From Flavihumibacter cheonanensis (GTDB lineage Bacteria > Bacteroidota > Bacteroidia > Chitinophagales > Chitinophagaceae), in assembly GCF_022352215.1 (NCBI RefSeq), contig NZ_JAKRWF010000001.1, positions 1,674,001-1,738,000 on the forward strand: a DNA stretch of 64,000 bases, written 5' to 3'. Below, in pieces: positions 7,392-61,590 of this stretch. Below the pieces are notes generated by a model. That model did no database searches. It worked only from the letters and a program-made list of their open reading frames with translations, and was not told the DNA's origin. The stretch's first letter is position 1; each line of letters begins with the position of its first letter. Made by a program: the position numbers and the translations under genes.

Positions 7392-7460
7392 ACACCCAAT
7401 CATTGTAAACAAATCAGGGAAGATAAACGCAAACCACCGGATCGGGTATGGTACGCTTAA
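7392..7460 (+). pseudogene. relic of an AraC-family regulator C-terminus
   Basis: Twenty-two codons plus a stop read TPNHCKQIREDKRKPPDRVW and two more residues. This is clearly homologous to the C-terminal TPSHFRQIREEKRKPLDKV of the intact HMA-AraC gene ending at 5888. There is no open frame upstream, since the stop codon of the nuclease-like gene is 10 bases away. The rest of this regulator has been lost or was displaced when the nuclease-like gene arrived. It lies upstream of the SDR fusion gene, where an AraC partner would be expected. Confidence 0.7.
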
Positions 7461-7568
7461 AGTCAGTTCCTGAATAATCCCTGTACCCTTGTGTCACTGT
7501 GGTTTATTGGTAAAGCGCTTTAACCATCCTGCCGGGCCGGTTAAATCAAAAATTTACATGTCAAACGA

Positions 7569-7599
7569 TTTGGATACAACTAAAAGCAGTTTGGATACA
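7569..7599 (+). promoter_or_regulatory. direct-repeat operator, 2 x TTTGGATACA at 21-bp spacing
   Basis: TTTGGATACA occurs at 7569-7578 and again at 7590-7599, start to start 21 bases, about two helical turns. It lies 54 bases before the ATG of the SDR fusion gene. Tandem sites on one helix face are typical of AraC-family binding. The obvious partner regulator nearby (relic at 7392-7460) is dead, so the site may be orphaned or read by another AraC protein. Confidence 0.5.
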
Positions 7600-7652
7600 T
7601 GCAAGTCCTGATTTGATGGCAATTTTGCAGAGTAAAACTTAAACAGTACATT

Positions 7653-9857
7653 ATGCAAAAGACAATTTTCATCACAGGAGCATCCGCAGGATTAGGAAAA
7701 GCCAATGCCAGGTTGTTTCAGTCAAAAGGCTGGAAGGTTATCGCAACCATGCGCAACCCGGAAAAAGAAACTGAGCTGACGAAACTTGACAACGTATCCG
7801 TATTACCACTCGACATAACAGATGTGGCTCAGATCAGCTCAACAGTGGATAAGGCCCTTGCTTTGGGTGATGTGGACGTGGTTTTTAACAATGCAGGCTA
7901 TGCCCTCAGCGGTGCTTTGGAAGCACTCAGCGATGACAAGATCGTTCGGCAGATCGATACAAATCTTTTGGGAGCGATACGTGTAACGCAGGCATTTATA
8001 CCCTATTTCCGCCAGAGAAAGGCAGGGCTTTTCATTACGACCACATCCATCGGCGGCATTTATACATTTCCGCTAAGCTCCCTGTATCATGCCACGAAAT
8101 GGGCACTGGAGGGATGGAGTGAAAGTATGTCCTTTGAGCTGGCTGCTTTTAATATCGGTATCAAAACCATAGCGCCAGGTGGCATTATAACAGACTTTAT
8201 GGACAGATCGCTGGATGCGTTACGTGGCTTTTACGGCACCATAGGCGGAACAAAAAATGGCTTTAGCTGGAATGCCTTTGGTACTTATAAAGGTGCACAA
8301 GACTACAGGAACAAGTATGATGGCTATGTCTTCAATTCAAAATTCTATAACAAGAACTTTGGCGGCATGGCAGGATACAGTGGCAATTGGGGATACAGCC
8401 GTTTGACGGTAAGTAATTTCGACCAGCATATCGGCATGACGGAAGGCGACCGTGACAGCGCCACCGGCCAGTTTGTAAAAGTGCTGCCGGGTGGCAATGA
8501 AGGCATTGCAGACGATAATGACTTCAAAAGGATAAGTATGGAAATTCCCTACCAGCGTATCCGTCACTTCAAGATCGCTTCGACTAATAAATTCAGGATG
8601 GGCAGCCATAGTGTTGACCTGGTACTGGGTTATCAGCATAACCAACGGCAGGAGTTTGGAGATATAGATGCCCCGTCCACCCCCGGCCTATGGTTTAATT
8701 TGCAAACGGTCAATTATGCGTTAAGCTGGCATTTGCCTCAAACAAAGAATTTCAAGACAACAATCGGCGTAAACGGCATGTACCAGACCAACCAGAACAA
8801 GGCAGCCGAAGTATTAATACCCGATTATAACCTGTTTGACATTGGCGGATTTGTTTTCACCCAATACACCAAAAACAAATTAACTGTAAGCGGTGGCATT
8901 CGTTATGATACCAGACATGATGACGGTAAAAGCATGGAAGTGGGTGGTACGGAGAAGTTCTCATCCTTCACACGAAATTTTTCCAATATTTCGGGCAGTG
9001 CCGGTCTCAGCTATGAGGTATCTAAAAACCTCGCTTTAAAAGCCAACATCGCCCGTGGATTTCGCGCTCCCAATTTCGCGGAACTGGCAAGCAATGGGGC
9101 ACATGAAGGCACCAACCGGTATGAGATCGGCGACAATAGCCTCAAATCAGAAGTGAGCCTGCAAGGAGATGCAGGCATGGAGTTGACCACAGAACACGTA
9201 GCACTCGATGCCAGTGTTTTCTACAACCGCATCAACAATTTTATTTTTTACGAGCGTGTACCCAACAGCACCGGTGGCGACTCTACGATAACCGATCCTG
9301 AAAGCGGCGACGAGTTGAACCTGTATCGGTTCGCCCAGCAGACAGCAAGCCTGTACGGGGCGGAATTAAGCCTGGACATCCACCCGCATCCCCTGGATTG
9401 GCTGCATTTTAAAAATACCTTCTCTTATACACGGGGTAAATTTGCGCAGGCGCTGGACGGTTCGGATAATATCCCCTTCGTGCCTGCCGCACGCCTGATC
9501 ACATCGCTTGGGGGAGACTTTTTGCACAAGGGCAATGTGGTCCGTAATCTCCACGTAGGCATTGAAAGCGATTACAATTTTGCACAGAACAATGCCTTTA
9601 CCGGATACAACACAGAAACGGCCACACCCAGCTATTGGCTGGTTGGGGTCAATGTAACTGCTGATTTTGTGAGCAAAGGCAGAACCCTTTTTACCCTGAG
9701 TGTAACCGGGAACAATCTTGGCGACATCGCCTATCAGAACCATTTGAGCCGTTTCAAATATCTGGCGGTCAACAATGTTACCGGCAGGCAGGGTGTATTT
9801 GCTATGGGCAGGAATTTTGGTTTCAAAATAAACGTGCCACTGAACTTTAACTGGTAA
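7653..9857 (+). CDS. chimera: truncated SDR oxidoreductase fused to TonB-dependent receptor barrel
   Basis: Residues 1 to about 190 are a short-chain dehydrogenase: TGASAGLG at 9-16, NNAG at 79-82, Ser132, Tyr145, Lys149 and the usual IAPGGI turn. The SDR then stops early, without its last 50-90 residues. From about residue 192 onward the protein is a TonB-dependent receptor barrel (YDGYVFNSKFYNKNFGGM, ARGFRAPNFAELASNG, aromatic C-terminal FNW). The receptor has lost its signal peptide, TonB box and most or all of its plug. No frameshift is present. The junction is near base 8220. It most likely arose by a deletion joining two neighbouring genes. A cytoplasmic SDR cannot deliver a barrel to the outer membrane, so the receptor part is probably non-functional. 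Confidence 0.85.
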   Translation: MQKTIFITGASAGLGKANARLFQSKGWKVIATMRNPEKETELTKLDNVSVLPLDITDVAQISSTVDKALALGDVDVVFNNAGYALSGALEALSDDKIVRQIDTNLLGAIRVTQAFIPYFRQRKAGLFITTTSIGGIYTFPLSSLYHATKWALEGWSESMSFELAAFNIGIKTIAPGGIITDFMDRSLDALRGFYGTIGGTKNGFSWNAFGTYKGAQDYRNKYDGYVFNSKFYNKNFGGMAGYSGNWGYSRLTVSNFDQHIGMTEGDRDSATGQFVKVLPGGNEGIADDNDFKRISMEIPYQRIRHFKIASTNKFRMGSHSVDLVLGYQHNQRQEFGDIDAPSTPGLWFNLQTVNYALSWHLPQTKNFKTTIGVNGMYQTNQNKAAEVLIPDYNLFDIGGFVFTQYTKNKLTVSGGIRYDTRHDDGKSMEVGGTEKFSSFTRNFSNISGSAGLSYEVSKNLALKANIARGFRAPNFAELASNGAHEGTNRYEIGDNSLKSEVSLQGDAGMELTTEHVALDASVFYNRINNFIFYERVPNSTGGDSTITDPESGDELNLYRFAQQTASLYGAELSLDIHPHPLDWLHFKNTFSYTRGKFAQALDGSDNIPFVPAARLITSLGGDFLHKGNVVRNLHVGIESDYNFAQNNAFTGYNTETATPSYWLVGVNVTADFVSKGRTLFTLSVTGNNLGDIAYQNHLSRFKYLAVNNVTGRQGVFAMGRNFGFKINVPLNFNW

Positions 9858-9876
9858 CCAGTGAAGAAGGTAAAAC

Positions 9877-9912
9877 AAACAGGCTGTTTCCCGTGCGGAT
9901 CAGCCTGTTTTT
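9877..9912 (+). terminator. rho-independent terminator
   Basis: A 10-bp perfect stem, AAACAGGCTG (9877-9886) and CAGCCTGTTT (9901-9910), has a 14-base loop and runs into a T tract. It lies 20 bases after the fusion gene and ends that transcript before the copA promoter. Confidence 0.75.
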
Positions 9913-9983
9913 GCTTTGGCAACATGAAACGGAATAGCAGCGAACAGTATCCCTGGCACAGGTTAACCCTGTTCCCTGAAATT

Positions 9984-10040
9984 TTATAAATCAATTCCAA
10001 AATTTCGTAATAGTAGCCACTGGCATTATGGTCAAATTTG
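9984..10040 (+). promoter_or_regulatory. copA promoter/operator, paired with the copZ promoter
   Basis: In order: TTATAAAT at 9984, the near-palindrome ATTTCGTAAT at 10002 and AAATTTG at 10034 (probable -7 region). The same three blocks with the same spacings (18 and 32 bases) occur before the copZ-like gene at 13656-13712. This conserved layout marks a shared copper-responsive control region. The binding protein is not identified; the HMA-AraC at 5301 is a candidate. Confidence 0.65.
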
Positions 10041-10064
10041 CATTATTCAATAAAGCAGCAAAAT

Positions 10065-12485
10065 ATGGCGACAGATAATAATAAAGAAATCATCTATCTG
10101 CCTTTGGAAAACGTAGAGAGTGACCATTGCGCATCCATCGTTGACAAGGGGCTGGCACAAGTCAAGGGGATCACCACCCATAAAGTAGAGCTGAACAACC
10201 GCAGGGCCGCCATAACGGTAAATGACCATGAGGCAATACCCGAAGCGGTGAAGGCAGTAAAGGATCTCGGGTATAACATTACCACTGCTAAAGGCGCTTT
10301 TCCTGTCCTGGGCATGACCTGTGCATCCTGTGCCGGAAGCGCTGAAAGTATCGTAAAATACCAACCCGGCGTGGTCAGTGCATCTGTCAACTTTGCAACC
10401 GGGAATCTTACCGTAGAATATCTCCCGAATATGACCAGCGCTTCAAAGTTGCAAAAAGCGGTACAATCCGTAGGTTACGATTTATTGATTGAAGATGAAA
10501 CCAGGCAGCAGGAAACATTGGAAGCGATCCACGCCCAAAACTTCAGCAAGCTGAAGACTAAAACCGTATGGGCAATCATCCTGTCTTTACCCGTTGTAGT
10601 GATCGGGATGTTCTTCATGGATATACCTTATGCCAACCAGATCATGTGGGCATTCGCTACGCCTGTTGTGGCATGGCTGGGCAGGGATTTCTTTATCAAT
10701 GCCTGGAAGCAGGCCAGACACCGTTCCGCCAATATGGACACGCTCGTGGCGTTAAGTACGGGGATCGCCTATATCTTCAGCGTATTCAATATGCTGTTTG
10801 CTGACTTTTGGCATCAGAGAGGATTGCATGCGCACGTATATTTTGAAGCCGCGGCCGTAATCATAGCATTTATCCTGTTAGGGAAATTGCTGGAAGAAAA
10901 GGCCAAAGGAAATACATCATCGGCCATTAAAAAACTGATGGGTTTACAACCTAAAACCGTAATGGTAATCCAGGCCGACGGGTCAGAAAAGCAGACCGCC
11001 ATTGAAGAGGTAAACGCGGGTGATGTGATACGGGTAAAGCCCGGTGAAAAAATCGCTGTAGACGGTATGGTAACATCCGGCAGTTCGTATGTGGATGAAA
11101 GCATGTTAAGCGGCGAGCCGGTCCCGGTACTTAAAAATGAAAACGAAAAAGTGTTTGCAGGAACGATCAACCAAAAAGGCAGCTTCCAGTTTAAAGCAGT
11201 GAAAGTAGGTAAAGAGACGATGCTTGCCCACATCATCAAAATGGTGCAGGATGCACAGGGAAGCAAAGCGCCTGTTCAAAAATTGGTAGATAAAATTGCA
11301 GGTATTTTTGTTCCGGTTGTCATGGGTATTGCCATCCTGACCTTTTTGCTATGGCTGGTGCTGGGTGGCGATAACGGGATCGTACAGGGATTACTGGCAG
11401 CCGTCACCGTACTCGTCATTGCCTGCCCCTGTGCATTGGGACTGGCCACGCCTACGGCTATCATGGTAGGTGTTGGCAAAGGAGCAGAAAAGGGTATCCT
11501 CATTAAAGATGCGGAAAGCCTCGAACTGGCCAAGAAAATAAATGCCATCGTACTGGATAAAACGGGAACTATTACCGAAGGAAAACCACAGGTGACCGGC
11601 ATCCAATGGCTGAATAATGACGATGCTTCCCAAAATGTGCTGTTGAGCATTGAAAAGCAATCGGAGCATCCATTGGCAGAAGCAGTGGCAAAACACTTTG
11701 AAGGGGTACGGGCTACCTCTTTATCCCTGTTCGACAGTATTACGGGTAAAGGGGCAAAAGCCAATCACAACGGCGAAACCTATTTTGTAGGTAATAAAAA
11801 GCTGTTGGCAGAAAACAAGATTGTCATTGCTGGCGAATTACAAGACAAAGCCGAAGAATGGGGCAAACAGTCCAAAACCGTTATCTGGTTTGCAAACAGC
11901 AAACAAGCTCTTGCTGTCATTGCCATAGCCGATAAGATTAAAGACACATCAGTACAGGCCATCAAAGAAATGCAGGATATGGGCATTGACCTGTATATGC
12001 TGACCGGGGATAATGAAGCTACCGCAAAATCCATTGCAGAGCAGACAGGCATCAGGCATTACAAGGCCGAGGTATTGCCACAGCACAAAGCCGATTTTGT
12101 AAAAGAACTGCAACAGCAGGGTAAAACAGTGGCGATGGTAGGCGATGGCATTAATGACAGCACCGCTTTGGCAACAGCCGATGTAAGTATCGCAATGGGC
12201 AAAGGCAGCGATATAGCAATGGATGTTGCCAAGATGACCATCATCTCCTCAGACCTTACCAAGATACCACAGGCAATACGTTTGTCAAAACAGACAGTAG
12301 CCACTATCAAACAAAACCTGTTTTGGGCGTTTATTTACAATGTAATTGGCATTCCGATAGCCGCAGGTATCCTTTATCCTGTGAATGGCTTCCTGCTTAA
12401 CCCCATGATTGCAGGGGCGGCAATGGCACTCAGCAGCGTAAGTGTAGTCAGCAATAGCCTGCTACTGAAATGGAAAAATAGGTAA
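10065..12485 (+). CDS. copA: copper-translocating P1B-type ATPase (CPC type)
   Basis: An inner-membrane Cu(I)/Ag(I) efflux ATPase. Numbered from the ATG at 10065, there are two N-terminal HMA domains. The first (about 10-75) is degenerate with only Cys22. The second has GMTCASC with Cys86 and Cys89. The transmembrane metal site is Cys454-Pro-Cys456. The phosphorylation motif DKTGT begins at Asp498, SEHPLAEA is the HP nucleotide-site motif, and GDGIND is at 693. After GDGIND the usual AP is ST. The TTG at 10038 lies by the promoter and is rejected as start. Transcription probably starts from the promoter at 9984-10040. Confidence 0.95.
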   Translation: MATDNNKEIIYLPLENVESDHCASIVDKGLAQVKGITTHKVELNNRRAAITVNDHEAIPEAVKAVKDLGYNITTAKGAFPVLGMTCASCAGSAESIVKYQPGVVSASVNFATGNLTVEYLPNMTSASKLQKAVQSVGYDLLIEDETRQQETLEAIHAQNFSKLKTKTVWAIILSLPVVVIGMFFMDIPYANQIMWAFATPVVAWLGRDFFINAWKQARHRSANMDTLVALSTGIAYIFSVFNMLFADFWHQRGLHAHVYFEAAAVIIAFILLGKLLEEKAKGNTSSAIKKLMGLQPKTVMVIQADGSEKQTAIEEVNAGDVIRVKPGEKIAVDGMVTSGSSYVDESMLSGEPVPVLKNENEKVFAGTINQKGSFQFKAVKVGKETMLAHIIKMVQDAQGSKAPVQKLVDKIAGIFVPVVMGIAILTFLLWLVLGGDNGIVQGLLAAVTVLVIACPCALGLATPTAIMVGVGKGAEKGILIKDAESLELAKKINAIVLDKTGTITEGKPQVTGIQWLNNDDASQNVLLSIEKQSEHPLAEAVAKHFEGVRATSLSLFDSITGKGAKANHNGETYFVGNKKLLAENKIVIAGELQDKAEEWGKQSKTVIWFANSKQALAVIAIADKIKDTSVQAIKEMQDMGIDLYMLTGDNEATAKSIAEQTGIRHYKAEVLPQHKADFVKELQQQGKTVAMVGDGINDSTALATADVSIAMGKGSDIAMDVAKMTIISSDLTKIPQAIRLSKQTVATIKQNLFWAFIYNVIGIPIAAGILYPVNGFLLNPMIAGAAMALSSVSVVSNSLLLKWKNR

Positions 12486-25470: not shown

Positions 25471-26277
25471 CTACTTGCTAATTTTCCGTTGGTGACGGGG
25501 TTTGATGCTCACCTGTAAGTACCGCTCTCCTTTCTTATCCATCCATACTATTTTCGCGTATTGGTTTTTGGTAAGCCAGAAGGTGGGCACTGTTACCAGG
25601 ACATGTTGTTTTCCCTCCTGTTGAATAGCAGTAGTTTCTGGATGAACGGCATGTACAGGAACAGCTACCGATTGGGTGGCACTTCTTTTGGATTTATTGT
25701 CGGTTACTATCCAGTATTGAACCCGTCCCAATTCAAAAGGTACAGCCGCCCGATTGCTAAGCTCCCAATCCATTGCATAGCTCCCCTCCTGGTACGCCCA
25801 ATCCCTAAGTGTCGCGCGAAGTCCTTGTTTTGCTTTTTTTAGGACTGCTCGTTGTCGTTGTTTGGGGCGTTCATCTTTCTGGGAAACCTCCTCAACCTGT
25901 TCGGGCTGCTTTCCCTTTACTGACATCCCTTCTATTAACATCGCATGAGAAGTATCTACCTTCAATACCCAGGTCGCAGGTGCTTCACTATAGGCAACCT
26001 TCAACACATACAATCGATCCTTACTAGTGAAAATGGTAATGTTGGTTGGCTGCAGATGTTCCGAAACTGCCTTGATCCAAATACAGTTGGGCTTATCGGC
26101 TACCCGTTTGCATACCACCTCACGACTGCCGATATCCAGTTCTTTAATAGCTGCCGGAAATACCACCGTAGTCGTTGCCCTATGGCTAATCTGAAGCAGG
26201 GGAGTTGTAGTTTCCTGTGCTGACACACAATACCCAATGAGAAAACTAACAATCAGCAATACACTTATTCGAATCAT
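25471..26277 (-). CDS. traN: conjugative transposon protein TraN (DUF4138, VirB9-like position)
   Basis: 268 residues with a signal peptide (MIRISVLLIVSFLIGYCVSAQ). The phrase TTVVFPAAIKELDIGSREVV is the conserved start of TraN/DUF4138, followed by ITIFTSKDRLYVLKVAYSEAP. TraN is thought to be part of the outer-membrane side of the conjugation channel. Here the C-terminal part has a Lys/Arg/Gln-rich insertion before the last beta region. It starts 18 bases after traM, as expected for a tra operon. Confidence 0.85.
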   Translation of the reverse strand: MIRISVLLIVSFLIGYCVSAQETTTPLLQISHRATTTVVFPAAIKELDIGSREVVCKRVADKPNCIWIKAVSEHLQPTNITIFTSKDRLYVLKVAYSEAPATWVLKVDTSHAMLIEGMSVKGKQPEQVEEVSQKDERPKQRQRAVLKKAKQGLRATLRDWAYQEGSYAMDWELSNRAAVPFELGRVQYWIVTDNKSKRSATQSVAVPVHAVHPETTAIQQEGKQHVLVTVPTFWLTKNQYAKIVWMDKKGERYLQVSIKPRHQRKISK

Positions 26278-26295
26278 GGTTATATATTGAAAGGA

Positions 26296-27540
26296 TTATT
26301 TAATTTGAAGCCAAACCCGATAGCCGGATGGCAGGTTTACCTTCACTTGCCGGGTACGCTTTGCCAACATGGTTTTTGCAGCCTGGATACCTGCCGTTGC
26401 CGCCTGCATGGATAGGGAAGGATTAATACCTCCTAGCAAATCAATTCCTTGCACGGCCTGTCCCGCACTTTGCCGTAACGATTCCCTTGTAAGCGAAGCA
26501 GGAACTGCAATCCCGGCTAATCCATCCATATCCACCACCTGCCAGGAGATAGATTGCCAATGCCCGGAACCAAGCATCGTTTTACCAACAATTTGCAAGC
26601 GATCTCCCTGTAAACTGGTTGTACCATAGAAACTGGTAAAAGCTGGTATATGCGTAGTACCTTGCCGAATAGTATCCAATAACAACAAATGAACAGCTGC
26701 CCCAGGCACCAATACCTGCTCTCCGTATACCATCGCTTGAGGACTTTGGTTGTTGGAGGATATCAGGATTTCAGTAGCTGAAAAGAAATAGGATGACGGA
26801 CTCGCTTGTTCCTCCACTTGAGCAGCGTTAGCAGGGAGCACCTCAGTTACACCGAGCGGTTTTTCAGTTCGTTCACTAGTTTCCTTTGCCATTGGACGGC
26901 TCTCATCCTCGTCCCAATTCCCTTGCTGAATTCTCAAAATCTTATCCAGCATACTATCCAACCGGTCCATCTCAGTATCCGGTGAAGCGCCTGCTTCTTG
27001 AATAGCTTGCATCATCCCATTCAACTCCGTCATTTCTTGCGAATGGGGCAGCACAGTAGGAGTAAGTACCTCCTTGGATTCGAAGTTTTCGGTTGGAGCT
27101 GCCAAACTTTGTTCCAGCTCTGCTATTTTTTTTAATAGTCTTTCTGATTGTTGATCCGTTGACGCTTTTTTCGAAAGCTGACGAGCAGCACTTCGTTTGC
27201 TGTTGGAAAATGCTTGCTCATTTTTAGCTGAAGGGTCCGCTTCAAGGGTTTCTTGATCAGCAGCCGATTCACGATCCCAATACCGCTCTTTCCGCTTGGC
27301 TGCGGCTTCCTTCTTATCCAACGCATCCTCCTGTGCGTAATATGCCCACTTATCCAACTCTTTATTCTCTGTAAAGAAAGGATCCGGCAGTTGAAAATTG
27401 AGGCCTTTGACAGTAGGGCCGGAATTGGTTACAGTTCCTTGTCCTCCACCTGCCGCCCAAAAGGCGAGACATAAAAAGGGAGTGATTATTAACGGCAAAA
27501 AAAACAATGCTTTTTGTGTGCGCCTGGCACGTATGGTCAT
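26296..27540 (-). CDS. traM: conjugative transposon protein TraM (VirB10-like)
   Basis: 414 residues from the ATG at 27540, whose ATGA overlaps the traL stop codon; an ATG nine bases earlier is possible. One N-terminal membrane helix (ALFFLPLIITPFLCLAFWAAGG) is followed by the TraM phrase GLNFQLPDPFFTENKELDKWAYYAQEDALDKK. A long Glu/Lys/Ser-rich coiled-coil-like middle and a C-terminal VirB10-like domain follow (VLVPGAAVHLLLLDTI and HIPAFTSFYGTTSLQGDRLQI). It probably spans the envelope as the energy-sensing arm of the transfer channel. Confidence 0.87.
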   Translation of the reverse strand: MTIRARRTQKALFFLPLIITPFLCLAFWAAGGGQGTVTNSGPTVKGLNFQLPDPFFTENKELDKWAYYAQEDALDKKEAAAKRKERYWDRESAADQETLEADPSAKNEQAFSNSKRSAARQLSKKASTDQQSERLLKKIAELEQSLAAPTENFESKEVLTPTVLPHSQEMTELNGMMQAIQEAGASPDTEMDRLDSMLDKILRIQQGNWDEDESRPMAKETSERTEKPLGVTEVLPANAAQVEEQASPSSYFFSATEILISSNNQSPQAMVYGEQVLVPGAAVHLLLLDTIRQGTTHIPAFTSFYGTTSLQGDRLQIVGKTMLGSGHWQSISWQVVDMDGLAGIAVPASLTRESLRQSAGQAVQGIDLLGGINPSLSMQAATAGIQAAKTMLAKRTRQVKVNLPSGYRVWLQIK

Positions 27541-27995
27541 GGTTTGCATATACTATCTTGCTTTACTGATTGATAATAGGATTTCGTTCTATTCAATGAA
27601 TGGACGGGAAAGGAGGATGGTGATATGACAACACCGTCAAATGCAGCTGAAAAACGGGAATAGAGAGGCGGAAACAAGATCCATTGATGTTGCTTAATTG
27701 CTATGGGCACACTTCCTGTACGAGTGATCATGGGTATCCAGTGCGCTAACCCATGAGATGCCTCCTCCTTTAGAAAAGGTTTGACCAATACAACGCTTAT
27801 ACAACAACTAAACCCTACCACGTAGAAGAGCCATACCCTTCGCTGGTCGGCCAGGGATAATCGATGCATCCGTTGTTGGAGTTTATAGGAAACCCACCAT
27901 TGCCATTGAAGGAACTGAAAAACCCAACGTTCTAGCTGCTCTTCCCACCAAGGCTGTTTAGTGTTTCCTACATGTTTTAACCAGTTTTTTTTCAT
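27537..27995 (-). CDS. traL: TraL-position conjugation protein
   Basis: 152 residues from the ATG at 27995, which follows the traK stop by 10 bases; a start further upstream would run into traK. It has a Trp-rich N-terminal region (WWEEQLERWVFQFLQWQWWVSYKL) and one membrane helix (VWLFYVVGFSCCISVVLV). It lies between traK and traM, the usual traL place, and is somewhat longer than the usual ~100 residues. The name rests on position and the membrane helix, not on a clear motif. Confidence 0.55.
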   Translation of the reverse strand: MKKNWLKHVGNTKQPWWEEQLERWVFQFLQWQWWVSYKLQQRMHRLSLADQRRVWLFYVVGFSCCISVVLVKPFLKEEASHGLAHWIPMITRTGSVPIAIKQHQWILFPPLYSRFSAAFDGVVISPSSFPVHSLNRTKSYYQSVKQDSICKP

Positions 27996-28005
27996 ACAAA
28001 AAAGT

Positions 28006-28623
28006 TTAACGAGCGCTGCGACGGATATCCGGATTCTCCAGAATTCGCCAGCGTTCAATTAAAAAACCATGTGGATTGTGATCCGATCTTCGAACCAATC
28101 GTAAGTAACCGTCCGTTATCAATTTTCGGTAGAGGACACTGCTGGTTCGGATGATTTGTTGCGAAGCATAACACCGGAAATAATAAGGGGGGATCTCGGT
28201 TTGAACCAAGACACTATCAATAGCAATGTGCTGACTGATATTGCCTGCTATCAGTTGCCGATAAAAACCCTGTTCTTTTAAGTTATCGTATTGTTGTTTG
28301 GCTGATTCATCGGCCAGGTACAAGGCTTTGGCAATCGTTTGTTGGATCACCTTTTCATCCGGATCCAAGCGAAAAAAAGCTTCATGAAAACTACGTACAT
28401 GATCCCGCGCTTCTACCGGCAGATTGGATTGTCTTGTCTCTGCCACAGCCTCCAATGCTTTTTCATTGCTGAGGATATAAATCTTATCCTGTAATTGACG
28501 ACTGGTTTGTTGAGCCGACCAGACCACCCAGGCAGACAATCCCATACAGGATGCTATAATCAGCAATGTAAAACCACGTACATACCGAAATGCCGTATCC
28601 AATTGTTGCAATTGCTTAAACAT
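28006..28623 (-). CDS. traK: conjugative transposon protein TraK (VirB8-like)
   Basis: 205 residues. Starting at the ATG at 28623 gives MFKQLQQLDTAFRYVRGF, the typical TraK beginning; an ATG 21 bases earlier would lie in the AGGAGG ribosome-binding stretch. One N-terminal membrane helix (TLLIIASCMGLSAWVVW) and a VirB8-like periplasmic domain follow (VRSFHEAFFRLDPDEKVIQQTI, SNPHGFLIERWRI-type end). TraK links the inner-membrane and periplasmic parts of the transfer machine. Confidence 0.87.
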   Translation of the reverse strand: MFKQLQQLDTAFRYVRGFTLLIIASCMGLSAWVVWSAQQTSRQLQDKIYILSNEKALEAVAETRQSNLPVEARDHVRSFHEAFFRLDPDEKVIQQTIAKALYLADESAKQQYDNLKEQGFYRQLIAGNISQHIAIDSVLVQTEIPPYYFRCYASQQIIRTSSVLYRKLITDGYLRLVRRSDHNPHGFLIERWRILENPDIRRSAR

Positions 28624-28667
28624 TTTACCCTCCTCCTCTTTCACACGATTTAACTCAAACTTGCTTG

Positions 28668-29849
28668 TTACTTGCCTGCCACCTTGTCTGCAAAATAGCC
28701 ACCAGATTGACCTGCACCAGCCATACTTCCAGATGTGGCATTTTTTACCTCGCCATAGACATCCCGCACCATCGAAGTACCTGTACCAAGCGTGGATTGT
28801 ACCATTCCCCGACTAGAGGCACTAAACAAACTGGAAACTTTGTACAAAATGGCATTGCCTCCACCTGCATGCACAATGTAGTTGGCTACACTCGGTACCG
28901 AAAAATAGCCAACGATGCCAATTACCAAAAAAATCAAATAGGCACTATCGGTGGCACTGAAAAACGTATCTCCCGCCGCTCCGATTTGCTCAATATCCAG
29001 CGCAATCATTTGCTCCTGAATCTTACCCAGGATCCCGCCAAAAATATTGGCAACCGGTAACCACAGAAATATATTGATGTACCGGGCAATCCAAACCGTA
29101 AGCGTATGTTGCAACCCATCAAAAACCGCCAGCCCAAATACCAACGGACCCAGAATCGCCAGAACAATAAGAAAAAACGTCCGTAGGGTATTGATGCAGA
29201 GTGCTGCTGCTTCATAGATCAATGCCAGCACCTCACTCATCCATTCCTTGATGGAGTTCCGAAAATTATAGGATGCTTTTGCCATGGCAAATTTGATGTC
29301 ATTGCCGACCGATTCAAACATACCCTCTCCTGTTCCCGTTGGATCTTCCGGATGGGTATAGCGGTACCACCGGTCCCGATCACCCGCACCACTAGCACCC
29401 ACATACATTTGCCAGACATCGGAATTGCGAATGGCAGCTTCTTTTTTGGCCAACAATACTTCAATTGCCTGATTACTGTTATCTACCAAAGCGCTGGTAC
29501 CACTCACGGTGGGCTGCAGTACCCCGTTGATCAGCCCCACCACATGTGGAAACAACAAAATCGCCATGCCCAACACAAAAGGCCGAAACAAGGGATAAAA
29601 ATCAATCGGCTCTGCATTTGCCAAATGCCGCCAAACCCGTGCTGCGATGTAATACAAGGCCGCAAACCCTGCAATCCCCTGCCCCACTCCTATTAACTGA
29701 CTACAGAGTGGCAACATCTCACGGTAGAGTTGATCCAGCACGCCGTGTAAGCCCCGAATTTCTCCTGCCACCCCCTGCGCCTGACTGGTAAATTGTACAC
29801 CCACACCCAGGAACATCCCAACCAAGCTGATTACATGCGCTGCTTTCAT
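28668..29849 (-). CDS. traJ: conjugative transposon protein TraJ (VirB6-like)
   Basis: 393 residues from ATG 29849; an earlier ATG at 29885 would overlap the previous gene. A polytopic inner-membrane protein with a signal-like start (VISLVGMFLGVGVQFTSQAQG). It has several helices (GIAGFAALYYIAARVW, FVLGMAILLFPHVVGLINGV, LIFLVIGIVGYFSVPSVANYIVHAGG). The VANYIVHAGGGNA segment is characteristic of TraJ. It is the inner-membrane channel core. The C-terminal 50 residues are Gly/Ser-rich. Confidence 0.88.
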   Translation of the reverse strand: MKAAHVISLVGMFLGVGVQFTSQAQGVAGEIRGLHGVLDQLYREMLPLCSQLIGVGQGIAGFAALYYIAARVWRHLANAEPIDFYPLFRPFVLGMAILLFPHVVGLINGVLQPTVSGTSALVDNSNQAIEVLLAKKEAAIRNSDVWQMYVGASGAGDRDRWYRYTHPEDPTGTGEGMFESVGNDIKFAMAKASYNFRNSIKEWMSEVLALIYEAAALCINTLRTFFLIVLAILGPLVFGLAVFDGLQHTLTVWIARYINIFLWLPVANIFGGILGKIQEQMIALDIEQIGAAGDTFFSATDSAYLIFLVIGIVGYFSVPSVANYIVHAGGGNAILYKVSSLFSASSRGMVQSTLGTGTSMVRDVYGEVKNATSGSMAGAGQSGGYFADKVAGK

Positions 29850-29860
29850 AGCTTCAATTT

Positions 29861-30499
29861 TTATTCCGGTCGTATACCATGCCACTGTTGAACCCGCCGG
29901 TTCGACTCCTGCAACCTTTCCCGTTGTTTTGCCACTACTTGTGCTTCTTTGGTAAAGGCTTGTAGAAACTGCAATTGATCCTGTACGGTAACATAAATCC
30001 GATCAATGGCTTCCAATCGTTCCGCATCCGTCATGCGCAGCTGCCGAGCTGTTACCACCATTAGTAACGCATCCAAATTATCCCAACTTGATTTCCCCAG
30101 ACGCTCCATCACCTTACTGAAATAGTCCAATTCTTCCAGACTGAATCGATCACTGCCACGGGCCTCATCCACTAACTGCTTGGCTGATTGGAGTAGCCGT
30201 TTCTGACTAGCAATGATAGCTCCTATTTTGTGGTAGTTTCGAACGGTCGGACTCACCTGTAGCAATCCATCCAGGAACAAATCATGCAATTGAAAATTCC
30301 CCTCTGCTATCCCCTTGACCCGGTTGTAGCCCTTCATCAGAATCTGATACCCATCGTACATGTTCTGTAGGATTTTTCGGAGCTGATTGAGCTTCTGAAT
30401 GTTCAAGGCTAGTTGCATAGCTTCTTGCACTTGTGCCTGAGTAGGCAGTGGCATCAGCCACATACTTGCACTGAAGAAGAAAAAAAGTAGTCGCTTCAT
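29861..30499 (-). CDS. TerB/TraI-like conjugation protein (copy 3)
   Basis: 212 residues with a signal peptide (LLFFFFSASMWLMPLPTQAQ). It carries LNQLRKILQNMYDGYQILMKGYNRVKGIAEGNFQLHDLFLDGLLQVSPTVRNYHKI, the pattern of Bacteroidota proteins that databases call TerB family tellurite resistance protein. That label is misleading: they are tra-operon members found between TraI and TraJ. Two relatives precede it in the operon (30501, 31121). It is exported and helical. Confidence 0.75.
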   Translation of the reverse strand: MKRLLFFFFSASMWLMPLPTQAQVQEAMQLALNIQKLNQLRKILQNMYDGYQILMKGYNRVKGIAEGNFQLHDLFLDGLLQVSPTVRNYHKIGAIIASQKRLLQSAKQLVDEARGSDRFSLEELDYFSKVMERLGKSSWDNLDALLMVVTARQLRMTDAERLEAIDRIYVTVQDQLQFLQAFTKEAQVVAKQRERLQESNRRVQQWHGIRPE

Positions 30500-30500
30500 A

Positions 30501-31109
30501 TTACTGGATTGAATGGATTGCCCTGGTGGATTGAATGGATTGCTGTGCTCGTTGACGCTGCATTTGCAGCAGTTGCCAATCGGTTTGATAGGTGTCCAGA
30601 AACTGACTTAGTTCCATCAGTTGCTGGTACAACAAGTGAATGGCAGTGAGACGGTCTTCATCGGTTGCTTTCAATTGCGCCGCTTCAATCCAGTGCCCTA
30701 ACGCACGTACACCCAACTCTACTTCTTGCAGTACCACACCGATCGTTTGCTGGACCGCTTCCCGATCCGCCAACATGGTCGAAGCTTGGGCCTGGCGACT
30801 GAGTGCAAAGCAGCGTCGAATCAACTGTTGCTGCAGTTGAATACAAGCCAGAGTTAGTTGCCCCTTTCGAATAGCCGGATTAACCGCTCCCCAGGAACCC
30901 AGATAATCCGTGTGCAACGAAAACTCTCCGTTTTTCACATCGCCAATGAACCGAAGTCCCCCCTGCACCACCCGGTATCCTTTTTTCACGTAGCTCAGGT
31001 AAACCTGTAGCAGCGCAATCCGTTTGATCAACGGTTGCAGTTTTGCTTGGGCATGCACCACCTGACCCAGTAAGCAGAAGCTTAGCAGGAGAATCCATAC
31101 TCGTACCAT
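30501..31109 (-). CDS. TerB-like exported conjugation protein (copy 2)
   Basis: 202 residues with a signal peptide (VWILLLSFCLLGQVVHAQ). The helical pattern (VYLSYVKKGYRVVQGGLRFIGDVKNGEFSLHTDYLGSWGAVNPAIRKG) aligns with copy 3 downstream (29861), which shares the GNFxLHxxxL and VxPxxRK features. It probably arose by gene duplication. The C-terminus has a short direct repeat, QSIQ...HSIQ. Only one base separates it from copy 3, so the two are translated together. Confidence 0.65.
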   Translation of the reverse strand: MVRVWILLLSFCLLGQVVHAQAKLQPLIKRIALLQVYLSYVKKGYRVVQGGLRFIGDVKNGEFSLHTDYLGSWGAVNPAIRKGQLTLACIQLQQQLIRRCFALSRQAQASTMLADREAVQQTIGVVLQEVELGVRALGHWIEAAQLKATDEDRLTAIHLLYQQLMELSQFLDTYQTDWQLLQMQRQRAQQSIQSTRAIHSIQ

Positions 31110-31120
31110 AGTAGTCCGAT

Positions 31121-31807
31121 TTAATTACTTGAAATACCGTATAACATTCGTACGCGTTGCAGGGTAACCTTGTCTTTGGAACGTTGCACCGATAAGAGCA
31201 CATTTTCCTGATTGAAACGACGCAGGTCACTTAGTAATACTGTCATATCTGCAGCCGCTTGATCAATAATCTTCCAACGCTCTCCGTCACTCATTTGAAC
31301 TGTAAAGGATTGTACCACTTGCAAAAGCTGATCGACAGTTTCCAAACTTTTGGCAAGCATACCACTATACACCAATCCCATGTATTCGATTTCCTGGGGT
31401 GTAAAATGCTCATCCTGCCGGAACAATTGATACGCTCGCTGGTAACTTTTCACTAAGGCCCGTTGGGTTTCGATTAATTCCTTTACCTTTTTGTAAGTCG
31501 CTAGTGCATTTTTTACCTTCCAGAGCTCTTCGTAATACGAGGCATACAACTTCCGTTGCTTCTCGCCCCAATCACCAATTTCTTCCAGCTTTAATTTGGA
31601 CAATGTATTCTCGAGTGCTTTCTGTGCATTCTGCAAACCAATCGTTTTATTTTGAAGGCGCTGTACTTGGGCATCAATCGCCAGTATGACCTTAATCACC
31701 ACCTGCCGGACTACTTCCCACCAAGCAGCCTGGGCAGATTGGCTGGGTACGATCGTACTTAAACTGGTTAAGAGAACAACCACCAACAGCCTACCCTTCT
31801 TTTTCAT
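31121..31807 (-). CDS. traI: conjugal transfer protein TraI (DUF4141)
   Basis: 228 residues from ATG 31807 (an ATG 6 bases earlier is less likely). Signal peptide (LLVVVLLTSLSTIVPSQSAQA), then IKVILAIDAQVQRLQNKTIGLQNAQKALENTLSKLKLEEIGDWGEKQRKLYASYYEELWKVK, the recognisable TraI/DUF4141 coiled coil. Its second half (HFTPQEIEYMGLVYSGMLAKSLETVDQLL, MSDGERWKIIDQAA) is like the TerB-type copies downstream. It acts in the periplasm; the exact role in transfer is unknown. Confidence 0.82.
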   Translation of the reverse strand: MKKKGRLLVVVLLTSLSTIVPSQSAQAAWWEVVRQVVIKVILAIDAQVQRLQNKTIGLQNAQKALENTLSKLKLEEIGDWGEKQRKLYASYYEELWKVKNALATYKKVKELIETQRALVKSYQRAYQLFRQDEHFTPQEIEYMGLVYSGMLAKSLETVDQLLQVVQSFTVQMSDGERWKIIDQAAADMTVLLSDLRRFNQENVLLSVQRSKDKVTLQRVRMLYGISSN

Positions 31808-31825
31808 ACACACCCGTTTTAGTGT

Positions 31826-34297
31826 TTACTTTATTTTTTCCCGCCACTCACTCGCCAGGATCTTGATCCCCTCTTGTATGCCACCGTATTTTGCCGCATA
31901 GGCCTGCACCTGCATTTTTTCTGTTTCTTCCGTCGTATACACCAGGTATTCCTCCAATGAAACTTCCGTTCGATACACTTTGGATAAAACGCCTCCCAAA
32001 CTGATGAATACTTCTTTGTACTTTTTACTCGGATCATTGGCTTTGTTTACACTTAGCACCTGCGCCTTTTCTTTTTCGGTTAGTCCTAATAGTTCCTGGA
32101 TTTGATCAAATTTGTTTTGGTACTTACTCTGGTCCAGCAAGATCTTGCAATCACTGTTGTTGATGATGGCTTGCTTCACCACTGGAGAAGAAATAATATC
32201 CTCTACTTCCTGAGTAACCACAATCGCTTCACCAAAAAACTTGCGCACCGTTTTAAACAGGTACTTGATGTATTCGGCCATCCCTTCCTTTGCGATCGCT
32301 TTCCAGGCTTCTTCAATTAAAATCATCTTCCGAATACCTTTAAGTTTGCGCATTTTTGCAATGAACACCTCCATAATGATCAACGTAACGACCGGAAACA
32401 AAATCGGATGGTCTTTGATATTATCCAGTTCAAATACAATAAAGGGTTGCTGCAATAAATCCAGTTGCTCGGTGGCATTCAACAAATAATCAAATTCTCC
32501 CCCCTTGTAATAGGGCCGCAATACATACAAAAAATTAGAAACATCAAAATCCTTTTCCTTCACAGCCTGCTCTTTTAACAAGGGAACAAACTGTGCCTGC
32601 AGGAACTCATAGAAACTATTGAAGCAGGGAAATACTTCCTTGTTGTTACCCACATACTCAAAGTACAGTTGCAAGGCATTCGACAAGGCCACGTACTCAC
32701 TTCTGCCAAAGGTCTCGTTGTCTTTTTTCCATAGTGCCAGTAGCAGGGTTTTGATACTTTCCTTTTTCTCGGTGTCCAGTTCATCTCCCTGCCCAATGTA
32801 AAACGGATTAAACCGGATGGGTGCTTTTTCCGAGTATGTGAAATAATACCCTTTCACCAGATCGCACAAACCCTTATAGCTATGACCCACATCTACCAGC
32901 ACGACATGTGTACCCTGTTCATAATAGGAGCGCACCATGTGATTGGTGAAAAAGGATTTACCACTTCCGCTAGGCCCCAGAATGAATTTGTTTCGATTGG
33001 TAATTAATCCCCGCTTCATCGGCTCATCTGAAATATCCACTTGTATGGGTCTTCCAGTTAAGCGATCGCCCAACCTAATGCCTATGGAGCTAAGCGAGCT
33101 TTGATAAGCAGTTTCCAGGTTTAAAAAACAAGTAGCCTGTTCCACGAACGTATCAAAGGTCTCATTCATGGGAAAATCAGCGGCATTCCCCGGTAGGCCC
33201 GCCCAGTGGATTTGCGGCGCTCCGTCCAGCTCTTGCTTCGGTGTCGCATCCATCTGGGCAAGGGCACTTGATACCAGGTTTTTCAATTGCTTCAACTCCT
33301 CTTTCTCCTCTGTCCAAACCAGCAAATTGAAATGTGCTTTCACAGGTTGTCGTTGCTGACTAATGGCTTCATTTAAAAATTCATTAGTGGCTTCCCGGGC
33401 TAGTGCATTCTCTCTAGAATAAGCTGCCAGCGATTGCAAGCGCAACCGCTTACTTTCCAACTGCTGCATCATTTTCTGCGGATCCTCCAAAAACAAAAAC
33501 TGGTTGTAGATATGATTGCAGGGCAAGAGTTGGCCCAATACAGAAGCAAAACCCACACTGAACTTGGTCCGGTCCGTGGAATACCGATCGTAATTGATGC
33601 GACTACCACATACCCCCGGCAGATCCACCACATCTCCCAAGGTATAGAGCTGGCAATACTTGGATCCGATTTGCAGTTGTTCCCGGAATTGGATATCGGC
33701 CATGATGGGATGCGAAGCAGCCTCCTCTTGCAAAAAACAGTACTGCTCCAACAAACCAGCACGTTGGTGGGTACTGATCAATTCTTTTTCCAACACCCGA
33801 CGCAGACGCACATACCCACTGTCTTCCATTACCCGTTGAAATTGACCACAACCATCTAGAAAATCTTGTAGTTTGGTAGGATGCAGCAATTCCGGTGGAA
33901 CCAGGTGCGGTCGGCACAACAACGAGAACAAGGAAGTAGACGATCGTCGTTCATTCAACCGCCGGGTCAATATGATATAACAACGATGATCCAAATAAGG
34001 TCGTTCATAAAAGAATCGATCACTGCTCTGTCCAAAAAAACTGCGGTCCTCTTTTCCAAAAGCGGGTTGAAAACGAGCTGCTACAAACCAATCCTGTTTG
34101 TGAAACACCGTTTGCTTCGGAAGCAGCTTGATGGCCTTGATCCAGGTTTGATGAAATGATTCATACTCCTCATTGGAAAGTGTGAAAACCTCCGGCAGGG
34201 TTGTTTCATAGACTACACTCACGGCCCCTTGTCGGGATAAGATGCAATCCTTTTCCACTCCCAAAATGGGAAAATAGGTGGCTAATGTTGCTTCCAT
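31826..34297 (-). CDS. traG: TraG family conjugation ATPase (VirB4-like)
   Basis: 823 residues. The Walker A motif GPSGSGKS lies near residue 437 and the Walker B-like ILIEEAWKAI in the C-terminal half (near 670). The N-terminal half carries CagE/TrbE/VirB-like sequence (YERPYLDHRCYIILTRRLNERR). It is the hexameric ATPase that powers pilus assembly and DNA transfer at the inner membrane. Its start overlaps the traF stop by 16 bases, which is usual in tra operons. Confidence 0.93.
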   Translation of the reverse strand: MEATLATYFPILGVEKDCILSRQGAVSVVYETTLPEVFTLSNEEYESFHQTWIKAIKLLPKQTVFHKQDWFVAARFQPAFGKEDRSFFGQSSDRFFYERPYLDHRCYIILTRRLNERRSSTSLFSLLCRPHLVPPELLHPTKLQDFLDGCGQFQRVMEDSGYVRLRRVLEKELISTHQRAGLLEQYCFLQEEAASHPIMADIQFREQLQIGSKYCQLYTLGDVVDLPGVCGSRINYDRYSTDRTKFSVGFASVLGQLLPCNHIYNQFLFLEDPQKMMQQLESKRLRLQSLAAYSRENALAREATNEFLNEAISQQRQPVKAHFNLLVWTEEKEELKQLKNLVSSALAQMDATPKQELDGAPQIHWAGLPGNAADFPMNETFDTFVEQATCFLNLETAYQSSLSSIGIRLGDRLTGRPIQVDISDEPMKRGLITNRNKFILGPSGSGKSFFTNHMVRSYYEQGTHVVLVDVGHSYKGLCDLVKGYYFTYSEKAPIRFNPFYIGQGDELDTEKKESIKTLLLALWKKDNETFGRSEYVALSNALQLYFEYVGNNKEVFPCFNSFYEFLQAQFVPLLKEQAVKEKDFDVSNFLYVLRPYYKGGEFDYLLNATEQLDLLQQPFIVFELDNIKDHPILFPVVTLIIMEVFIAKMRKLKGIRKMILIEEAWKAIAKEGMAEYIKYLFKTVRKFFGEAIVVTQEVEDIISSPVVKQAIINNSDCKILLDQSKYQNKFDQIQELLGLTEKEKAQVLSVNKANDPSKKYKEVFISLGGVLSKVYRTEVSLEEYLVYTTEETEKMQVQAYAAKYGGIQEGIKILASEWREKIK

Positions 34298-57917: not shown

Positions 57918-58313
57918 ATGTGTAGTAGAAAAACCAAATTGAATCGAACCCGCCTGGTGGGGTTGCGATTAACCGATGCCGAATACGACCGGATTGCAAA
58001 ACAATGGCAACAATCCACCTGCCGAAAATTGAGCGAATATATCCGTGATCGGCTCTTCAATCGACCCATCATTACCCAATACAGAAACCAGTCCATGGAT
58101 GACGCGATGGCAGAACTCATGCAGCTCCGTGCAGAAATCAACCACATTGGACACAACTTCAACCAGGCCGTGAAAAAGCTGCACCTCCTGCAAAAGATCC
58201 CGGAATTCAAATCCTGGTTAGTAGCCAACGAGCCGGTCATTGCTTCCCTCCACCAACAAATTCAAAAGATAGATTCCTCCGTTCAACAAATGGGTAAGCA
58301 ATGGTTGCAGTAA
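57918..58313 (+). CDS. mobC: mobilisation protein MobC (relaxosome accessory)
   Basis: 131 residues. An N-terminal ribbon-helix-helix-like part (TRLVGLRLTDAEYDRIAKQWQ) precedes the MobC signature (LMQLRAEINHIGHNFNQAVKKLHLL). It binds the transfer origin and helps the relaxase. Its 3' end overlaps the relaxase start by 13 bases. Confidence 0.82.
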   Translation: MCSRKTKLNRTRLVGLRLTDAEYDRIAKQWQQSTCRKLSEYIRDRLFNRPIITQYRNQSMDDAMAELMQLRAEINHIGHNFNQAVKKLHLLQKIPEFKSWLVANEPVIASLHQQIQKIDSSVQQMGKQWLQ

Positions 58314-59587
58314 TTAAAACCGGATCATCTATCCACCGGATCCTGAACTACAATGAAAACAAGGTGAAGGAAAAAGTTGCCACCTGCATAGCTGCCCGAA
58401 ACTTTCCATTGGAGCCGGAACAGTTAACCCTGAACCAGAAATTAAATCGGTTCCTGCATCAACTCCAACTCAACAAAAACGTCACCCGAAACAGTGTACA
58501 CATTTCACTAAACTTTCATCCTTCAGAATCCAACCTTTCTACTGAAAAGCTCCAGGCAATTGCCACCACTTATATGGAGGGGATCGGCTTTGGCAAGCAA
58601 CCCTACTTGGTTTACCAGCACCAGGACGCAGGTCATCCACATATTCATATAGTAAGTATAAAAGTGCAACCAGATGGAAGCCGAATCGACATGAACAACA
58701 TTGGTCGCAACCAATCCGAAAAAATCCGCCAGGAAATTGAGAAATCCTTCAAGCTGGTTTCCGCGAAACAGTCACACGAAAAACCGGTTCACCAACTTCG
58801 CCCGATTCCTGCCACTAAAGTCTCGTATGGTAAGGCTGCCACCAAAGCGGCTATTCAATCTGTATTGGATAACGTTTTACAACAATACCGATATACCAGC
58901 CTCCCGGAATTAAACGCCGTCCTGAACCTCTATAATGTATCCGCTTCTAGAGGAACTCCCAATTCCCGAACCTTCCAGACAAAAGGCCTTTTCTATCAGG
59001 TACTGGATGAGCAAAAGCAACCCATTGGCGTCCCCATTAAAGCCAGCCTCTTTTACAACAAGCCCACCTTAAAGTTCCTAGAAAACCAGTTCCAAAAAAA
59101 TGAATCCCTCCGAAAAGCCCACGCTGCATATCTTAAAGCCACCATTGACGAAGTTTTATCCAAATCAATGGACTCTTTTACGAGTCTGACGGAAGCATTG
59201 GCACGGAAACAGGTGGATGTCGTACTTCGACAAAACAAAACCGGGCAGACGTATGGAATCACCTTTGTCGATCACCGCAACAAATGCGTATTTAATGGGA
59301 GTGATCTTGGGAAAAAATATACTTATCGGGGACTTATCAACCGGCTCACTACCAACTTCCTTAGAAAAGCCAAACGTCCCGAAAAGAGCACAGTTTCCAT
59401 AAGACAATATCAAGCTGAACGTTGGACGGTATCCCTCCCAGCTGAAAACAAACCCTCCCAATTAGACACTAATCTATCTTCCGTGCTCAATACCATTATT
59501 CAACCAACACAATCCGCTGATTACTTACCGAACAGTCTCCGATACCCCTCCCGCCGTCGAAAAAAACGTGTTACCCGAAAATTATAA
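58301..59587 (+). CDS. relaxase / mobilisation nuclease
   Basis: 428 residues. The three-histidine metal motif HQDAGHPHIHIVS (H107 to H116) and the preceding NVTRNSVHISLNFHPSE segment mark a MOB-type relaxase. The likely catalytic Tyr lies in the N-terminus near NYNENK (residue 18). The C-terminal half (about 190-428) is basic and ends in RRRKKRVTRKL. It nicks oriT and leads the strand into the recipient. Overlaps mobC by 13 bases. Confidence 0.88.
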   Translation: MVAVIKTGSSIHRILNYNENKVKEKVATCIAARNFPLEPEQLTLNQKLNRFLHQLQLNKNVTRNSVHISLNFHPSESNLSTEKLQAIATTYMEGIGFGKQPYLVYQHQDAGHPHIHIVSIKVQPDGSRIDMNNIGRNQSEKIRQEIEKSFKLVSAKQSHEKPVHQLRPIPATKVSYGKAATKAAIQSVLDNVLQQYRYTSLPELNAVLNLYNVSASRGTPNSRTFQTKGLFYQVLDEQKQPIGVPIKASLFYNKPTLKFLENQFQKNESLRKAHAAYLKATIDEVLSKSMDSFTSLTEALARKQVDVVLRQNKTGQTYGITFVDHRNKCVFNGSDLGKKYTYRGLINRLTTNFLRKAKRPEKSTVSIRQYQAERWTVSLPAENKPSQLDTNLSSVLNTIIQPTQSADYLPNSLRYPSRRRKKRVTRKL

Positions 59588-59604
59588 TCATAAAATCAAA
59601 TAAC

Positions 59605-61590
59605 ATGAGTACCGGCGAAAACGAACAAGCCCTCCGGAAAATCCTGGACATGTCAAGACTGATCAGTTTAGTGTTGTTGTTCTTACACCTGTATTATTAC
59701 CAATACACGGCCTTTCAAACCTGGGGCTTGGTCAGTCCCTTTTCGGACCGGTTGTTAGAGAATATCCACAATACCGGACTATTCCGGTATTTCTTCATAT
59801 CCAAAGCCCTGGCCCTGGTTTTTCTGGCGATATCATTATTAGGTGGCAGAGGCAGAAAAGACGAGAAAATGAATTACAAAATCGCTATAGCCTACTCATT
59901 GACCGGACTTCTTATTTACATAGGAAGTAGTCTAGTCTTATGGGCACCAATGCCCGTTACCTCGTTGGCAGTGATCTATGCGTGTGGTTTATCCTTGGGC
60001 TATCTCTTGATCCTAACCGGGGGTACCCTGCTTTCCAAAATCATCCACAAACGCCTCAATAACGACGACATCTTTAACCGCGAAAACGAAACCTTCCCTC
60101 AGGAAGAACGACTGCTGAAAAATGAATTTTCTATCAATCTTCCGGCACGTTACAGACTGAAAAATAAGTTGAGAAATAGTTGGATAAATATCATCAATCC
60201 CTTTAGGGCAATTATGGTGTTGGGCACTCCAGGTGCAGGCAAATCCTACTTTGTAATTCGACATGTCATTACTCAGCACATATGTAAAGGTTTTACGATG
60301 TTCGTTTATGATTTTAAATTTGATGACCTAACGAAGATTGCTTATAATTCCTGGTTGAAACACAAACACCTGTATCCTAAACCGCCCAGGTTTTTTGTTA
60401 TCAATTTTGATGACTTAACAAGGAGCCACCGCTGCAATCCATTGGAGCCGTCTGCCATGACCGATATAACAGACGCTGCGGAATCGGCCCGTACGATTTT
60501 AATGGGATTGAACAGGGAATGGATCAAGCGGCAGGGTGACTTTTTCGTGGAATCATCAATTAATTTCCTGACTGCTGTCATATGGTATCTGAAAAAGTAC
60601 AAGGACGGCGAATTTTGCACGCTGCCTCACGTCATTGAACTGATGCAGGTGGACTATGACAGTCTGTTTACATTGCTTCGTTCAGAAAAAGAAATCGAAG
60701 TGCTAATTAACCCTTTCGTCAATGCTTACCTCAATGATGTCATGGAGCAACTCGAAGGCCAGATAGCTTCTGCTAAAGTGGCGATGGCAAGGCTTTCTTC
60801 CCCACAACTATACTACGTGTTATCCGGCAATGATTTCAACCTCGATGTAAACAATCCCGACAACCCCAAGATTGTTTGCATGGGCAATAACCCGCAGAAG
60901 ATTCAGATTTATGGAGCGGTACTTTCCCTATATGTAACCCGCTTGGTAAAGCAGGTCAACAAGAAAGGAAAGCTGAAATGTAGCCTAGTGTTTGATGAGT
61001 TCCCAACGATCTATCTTACTAACATGGATAACCTGATCGCCACAGCCAGGAGTAATAAAGTTGCGACCTGCTTAGGCATCCAGGATTTTAGCCAATTACG
61101 GAAGGATTACGGGCGGGAACAGGCAGATGTAATAATGAATATTACAGGTAATATCATTGCAGGACAAGTAACAGGTGATACCGCTAAACAACTCTCGGAA
61201 CGTTTCGGGAAAATAATGCAGGACAGGGAAAATTATTCAATAAACAGGGTGGATATGTCTATCAGCCGTTCTAAACAATTGGAAGCCGCTATCCCCCCTT
61301 CAAAAATATCGACACTGAGTGCTGGCGAATTTGTGGGCATGGTAGCGGACGACCCGGATAATAAAATAGACCTAAAAGCCTTTCATTGCGAAATCATCAA
61401 TGATCAAAATAAACTAAAAAAAGAGGAAGAAGCCTACAAGGAGCTAGAAGTGTTTAACAAGATAGATAACATCTTAGTACAGCGTAATTATTTTCTAATA
61501 AAGCAGGATATAAAGGAAATTATTCAGGCGGAAATGGACCGCATAAACAAAACCCCAGGATTAGGCCATTTGTTGGTAAACAAGACGTAG
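59605..61590 (+). CDS. VirD4-type coupling protein
   Basis: 661 residues. Four N-terminal membrane helices (about 16-36, 55-75, 88-108 and 115-145) are followed by an ATPase domain. Walker A is GTPGAGKSY near residue 207 and Walker B LVFDEFPTIYL near 463. It links the relaxosome to the conjugation channel. It follows the relaxase by 17 bases. In Bacteroidota systems this gene is often called mobC or traG, so symbols are confusing; I leave it blank. Confidence 0.92.
   Translation: MSTGENEQALRKILDMSRLISLVLLFLHLYYYQYTAFQTWGLVSPFSDRLLENIHNTGLFRYFFISKALALVFLAISLLGGRGRKDEKMNYKIAIAYSLTGLLIYIGSSLVLWAPMPVTSLAVIYACGLSLGYLLILTGGTLLSKIIHKRLNNDDIFNRENETFPQEERLLKNEFSINLPARYRLKNKLRNSWINIINPFRAIMVLGTPGAGKSYFVIRHVITQHICKGFTMFVYDFKFDDLTKIAYNSWLKHKHLYPKPPRFFVINFDDLTRSHRCNPLEPSAMTDITDAAESARTILMGLNREWIKRQGDFFVESSINFLTAVIWYLKKYKDGEFCTLPHVIELMQVDYDSLFTLLRSEKEIEVLINPFVNAYLNDVMEQLEGQIASAKVAMARLSSPQLYYVLSGNDFNLDVNNPDNPKIVCMGNNPQKIQIYGAVLSLYVTRLVKQVNKKGKLKCSLVFDEFPTIYLTNMDNLIATARSNKVATCLGIQDFSQLRKDYGREQADVIMNITGNIIAGQVTGDTAKQLSERFGKIMQDRENYSINRVDMSISRSKQLEAAIPPSKISTLSAGEFVGMVADDPDNKIDLKAFHCEIINDQNKLKKEEEAYKELEVFNKIDNILVQRNYFLIKQDIKEIIQAEMDRINKTPGLGHLLVNKT

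Follow-up and report, generated by a model that had tools for sequence, protein, structure and literature searches.

An open frame composed of parts of two proteins

Our analyses of a 64,000-nucleotide stretch of the genome of Flavihumibacter cheonanensis (referred to below as the window) have identified a single open frame of 734 codons on the plus strand, beginning with an ATG at 7653 and ending at 9857, in which an SDR (residues 1-188) is followed by the barrel of a TonB-dependent receptor. In a Pfam scan of this frame (E up to 0.001), the domain adh_short (PF00106) is found at residues 3-185 (E 5.9e-40, 137 bits against a cut-off of 26.6) and the domain TonB_dep_Rec_b-barrel (PF00593) at residues 184-689 (E 1.4e-38, 134 bits against a cut-off of 27), with the first 11 of the 436 profile positions of the latter unmatched. 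Chance is excluded as a source of two long and significant domains within a single frame. The coordinates of this frame's parts and of the neighboring features are summarized in Table 1.

Table 1. Fusion frame, junction and other features of the surrounding island (window coordinates)
Feature	Position	Strand	Basis
Retained sequence upstream of the SDR gene	7522..7652	+	98.1% identity of 7522-8218 to Niabella MAG
SDR part of the fusion	7653..8218	+	PF00106; comparison with whole gene L048:6001-6804
Junction ATGC, common to both parents	8215..8218	.	Three-way comparison
TonB-dependent receptor part (barrel; no signal peptide, N-terminal domain or plug)	8215..9857	+	PF00593; N. defluvii L046
Copper-translocating P-type ATPase, directly 3' of the fusion	10038..12485	+	TIGR01511, 619 bits, cut-off 397
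Conjugative-transfer genes (DUF4138, TraM, CtnDOT_TraJ, TraG P-loop)	25471..34297	-	Pfam, four selected frames
Relaxase and coupling protein of the island	58301..61590	+	Pfam PF03432, PF14293, PF02534

The fusion resembles the classical SDR oxidoreductases in retaining, within residues 1-188, the Rossmann cofactor-binding motif and the residues N104, S132, Y145, and K149, which are invariant in all 20 of the SDR homologues picked for comparison and which we take to be the SDR catalytic tetrad. It differs from them in the absence of the last 79 of the 267 residues of the whole protein (residues 189-267 of the parent). This C-terminal part, which in SDRs comprises the substrate loop and the last strand, contains 11 invariant columns out of 74 in the same 20 proteins. 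Most of the barrel characteristic of TonB-dependent receptors is likewise retained, whereas the signal peptide, the carboxypeptidase-regulatory domain and the plug that accompany it in such receptors are absent. Neither the Plug domain (PF07715) nor the carboxypeptidase-regulatory domain was matched in the fusion at E up to 0.001, and its N-terminus, judged by eye, is that of the SDR, with the SDR domain starting at residue 3, and carries no signal peptide. The absent receptor part consists of the plug together with 46 of the 149 columns that are invariant in 20 picked receptors. PF07715 is present in the related receptors L031, L014, and L046, and in L046 and the whole homologue L031 the plug and the N-terminal domain lie upstream of the barrel. 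The first-pass annotation had described an uninterrupted frame of this length that begins as an SDR with all of its catalytic residues, switches near residue 190 and continues as a barrel without plug or signal peptide, and our analyses bear out this description.

Copper was considered as the substrate of the receptor but is not established, because the whole homologue L031 falls below the NCBIfam cut-offs (its best matches are TonB-hemin, with 167 of the required 317 bits, and TonB-copper, with 47 of 472). At an E threshold of 0.1, ZnuD is the only solved structure matched by the barrel part (E 4.5e-8), and none of the seven other listed open reading frames of at least 150 aa around the receptor in L031 appears copper-like by eye.

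Since the sequence upstream of the SDR gene has been kept, the fusion is probably transcribed from the SDR promoter. A sigma-70 scan gave no site in 7522-7652, although such a scan may not fit the promoters of the host phylum, which to our knowledge it does not cover. Over the region 7380-10100, neither promoter-like sites (6, against 4.9 +/- 2.2 in shuffled sequences) nor terminator-like sites (1, against 3.2 +/- 1.5) are in clear excess. The transfer genes are of the CTnDOT type: the homologues of TraG, TraJ, and TraM, the relaxase and the coupling protein, as seen in a scan of selected genes, liken the island to the CTnDOT-type conjugative transposons of Bacteroidota.

Some other features were observed upstream of the fusion. 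Positions 7401-7435 (35 bases) are 83% identical to 5838-5872, the 3' end of an AraC-type gene (5274-5888), and may be what is left of another copy of such a gene; about 100 adjoining bases (7421-7521) are missing in the Niabella metagenome-assembled genome (MAG) described below. A 418-aa protein (6126-7382) is without a match in either Pfam (E up to 0.001) or NCBIfam (threshold E 1e-5); its residues 251-378 weakly match a type II restriction enzyme in PADLOC (E 4.2e-5). Further upstream (614-5271) lies a cluster with a beta-CASP metallo-hydrolase, an SDR and two frames that by eye resemble thymidine/AMP phosphorylase and ribose-phosphate pyrophosphokinase.

The junction and its parental genes

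A three-way comparison places the junction at four bases that both parents share, with the window following one parent on each side and the reading frame on each side being that of the respective parent. The join postulated by the first-pass annotation is thus real, although its exact site lies slightly before the base 8220 proposed there. The SDR parent is a whole gene of 267 aa (L048:6001-6804) on contig JAPUDO010000033.1 of the Niabella MAG; it matches the window up to 8218, and 7522-8218 aligns with this contig as a single piece. The receptor parent, which has both plug and N-terminal domain, lies on the chromosome of Niabella defluvii (CP079215.1, L046) and matches the window from 8215. 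Here the P-type ATPase follows the receptor as it follows the fusion, and the similarity is unbroken, window positions 8215-23874 being aligned in a single piece; within the window region 1600-10100, high identity to N. defluvii is seen only from 8215 on. The frame of the N. defluvii receptor (L046:5240-7642) is broken in the assembly by small indels, which could be sequencing errors or real decay.

The SDR part is separated from the Niabella MAG by 7 substitutions in 562 bases, of which 5 are silent; between the barrel part and N. defluvii there are 3 in 1643 bases, of which 2 are silent, together with two indel columns of a single base each. These small numbers agree with the earlier suggestion that the event is recent; they include changes on the parental branches and hence do not amount to a test of selection. 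Close whole copies of the parents were not found in the F. cheonanensis genome, where the identity of the best remaining match is 39% for the SDR part and 28% for the barrel part. A search for the parental genes as separate loci in relatives, as the first-pass annotation had advised, has been successful in that both exist as separate genes in Niabella, but no genome was found that has both of them whole. Exact breakpoints and both parents as separate genes, the receptor frame of N. defluvii being indel-interrupted, are thus in hand, as is expected for a chimeric pseudogene.

Information regarding the intervening genes comes from the same two genomes. In the Niabella MAG, the SDR gene is followed on its 3' side by an AraC-type regulator, a 169-aa frame with no Pfam match and a cluster of efflux genes (viz. 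an ACR-family RND pump in two frames, an outer-membrane efflux protein, and two CusB-like proteins), after which a FeoA-domain frame lies on the opposite strand. Positions 11881-19855 of the MAG are 97.4% identical to the region upstream of the receptor in N. defluvii (positions 9433-17385 of the reversed stretch), and this match links the two parental pieces. Beyond it, N. defluvii has a di-haem oxidoreductase, a Rieske protein, a DUF3347 protein and the N-terminal domain and plug of the receptor, with the join at position 23510. The ancestral gene order would accordingly be a composite of two Niabella genomes; a single genome with both whole genes in this order was not found. On these coordinates the loss would come to about 15.5 kb (9.3 kb in MAG coordinates and 6.1 kb in those of N. 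defluvii). Other efflux clusters remain in F. cheonanensis at 66-72% DNA identity. Most of the receptor is absent from the MAG owing to another deletion, of about 7.3 kb, which indicates that at least two losses of this receptor have occurred in related islands. The remnant in the MAG (L050:5635-6507, near position 19855 of JAPUDO010000033.1) comprises only the last 168 residues.

We consider the frame to be, with a probability of roughly 0.85, a chimeric pseudogene that arose when a deletion in a mobile heavy-metal island, with one breakpoint in the SDR gene and the other in the TonB-receptor gene, joined the two through the 4-base microhomology. This deletion would have removed the C-terminus of the SDR, the AraC-type regulator, a Cus-type heavy-metal efflux cluster, two redox proteins and other genes, as well as the signal peptide, N-terminal domain and plug of the receptor, and the product would be in frame by a one-in-three chance. 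That a deletion had joined two genes was also one of the two origins considered in the first-pass annotation, and it gains support from the identification of the parents and of a second species with the same junction. With a random join, at least 4 shared bases are seen in 1.6% of trials when these are simulated and in 1.9% when they are sampled from the parental regions; the shared bases are thus a weakly significant signal of microhomology, and illegitimate recombination based on it is likely, if unproven. Chimeric (fusion) pseudogenes are known to arise by deletion through short homologies, and as a type of event such a chimera is ordinary. As in other cases, two genes of the same strand have been joined in their coding parts at short shared bases with the 5' upstream region kept; the present one differs from the usual examples in that its frame is open and that two species carry it on a shared conjugative island.

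The probability given is rough and overlaps with that of another origin, which also yields a chimeric pseudogene, viz. that the join was made by recombination between an island of the MAG type and one of the N. defluvii type. Such an origin would account for the identities on the two sides of the join (97.4-98.1% to the MAG on the left, 98.5-99.3% to N. defluvii on the right) and for the failure to find a genome with the full ancestral order. However, the SDR side, the efflux cluster and the tail of this receptor lie together on a single contig of the MAG, which implies that both partners once resided in one island, and we regard this alternative as unlikely.

Distribution of the fusion and its probable fate

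One further species, Flavihumibacter sp. UBA7668 (G009/L030), has the same junction, within 27.6 kb of near-identical DNA. Between window positions -5902 and 21702 the identity of the two is 99.99-100% at all positions for which UBA7668 has letters, the left end of the similarity lying beyond the end of the UBA7668 contig. The four alignment gaps up to 21773 correspond to runs of N in UBA7668, one of which (9821-9935) hides the last 11 codons of its copy of the fusion. The following 39.5 kb (21773 to 61284) are 97.9% identical, and from 73950 rightward the matching stretches are 73-93% identical. In the rpoB region, the two genomes are 84.8% identical over 5.5 kb and 76% over a further 1 kb. 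The island is thus far more alike than the genomes that carry it, which argues for its recent transfer; it may have moved between the two species or have reached both from one source.

Elsewhere the fusion appears to be rare. It is found in 2 of 15 Flavihumibacter genomes (two of the 15 being only 55% and 75% complete), whereas seven others contain the receptor part at 48-63% identity, six as open frames of 807-817 codons and one cut by a contig end. A query of 300 bases across the junction matched 82 of 394 genomes of the Chitinophagaceae, which we take to be the family of the island's carriers; among the matches listed, only F. cheonanensis spans the join, the others ending or beginning at it or lying inside one half. 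UBA7668 is not among these matches and was probably not drawn into the sample. Four of 395 genomes of the class (a sample overlapping that of the family) matched the same query, and again F. cheonanensis alone spans the join. In a scan of genome contigs, among the 80 loci retained out of 193 relatives, the fusion was present only in UBA7668; a further candidate (L049, matching residues 89-726 at 36%) is an 801-aa frame that we take for an ordinary receptor. A megablast search with window positions 5200-12500 gave no match to a plasmid.

SDRs act in the cytoplasm, and a barrel needs export. Lacking export signal, plug and the last 79 SDR residues, the fusion is judged to be a recent chimeric pseudogene that has spread by hitch-hiking on the island; its product would remain in the cytoplasm and is probably non-functional, being neither a whole enzyme nor a whole receptor. 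Automatic annotation may label such a frame as SDR or receptor, when it is probably neither. That it is instead a functional protein that has acquired a new role, for example as an enzyme fragment or a repurposed barrel, could be argued from the open frame and the kept upstream region of the SDR. Against this stand the missing export signal and plug, the loss of 11 invariant residues with the SDR C-terminus, and the occurrence of the fusion in no further genome of our samples; nor is selection visible from two copies that, as far as UBA7668 is readable, are identical DNA. We consider such a role very improbable. A chimera widespread and conserved among relatives, which the first-pass annotation had named as a sign of function, is not what is seen here, the fusion being confined to 2 of the 15 genus genomes and to identical DNA in a shared island. 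It is scarcely more credible that the fusion is expressed and owes its retention to a benefit that the island or the host draws from its product or from the removal of the efflux cluster; were this so, the cross-compartment chimera would represent the birth of a new gene caught in a mobile element. The least probable of all is the earlier alternative that two contigs were falsely joined, for although the F. cheonanensis assembly is in draft form, with 241 contigs, an assembler should not be led astray by four shared bases, and the junction recurs in a species 85% alike in the rpoB region, in an island whose 2% difference over the next 39.5 kb marks the two as different molecules.

The preferred reading, a chimeric pseudogene made by deletion, thus provides a clean and recent example of a chimeric gene, probably formed by illegitimate recombination, for which both parents and a second carrier species are known. 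In the part of the literature covered by our search, no description of such an SDR-receptor fusion came to light. Within the shared island, two stretches of 106 bases (36255-36360 and 39195-39300) also match a second place in the UBA7668 island at 89.6% identity, and they probably represent a repeat internal to the island.
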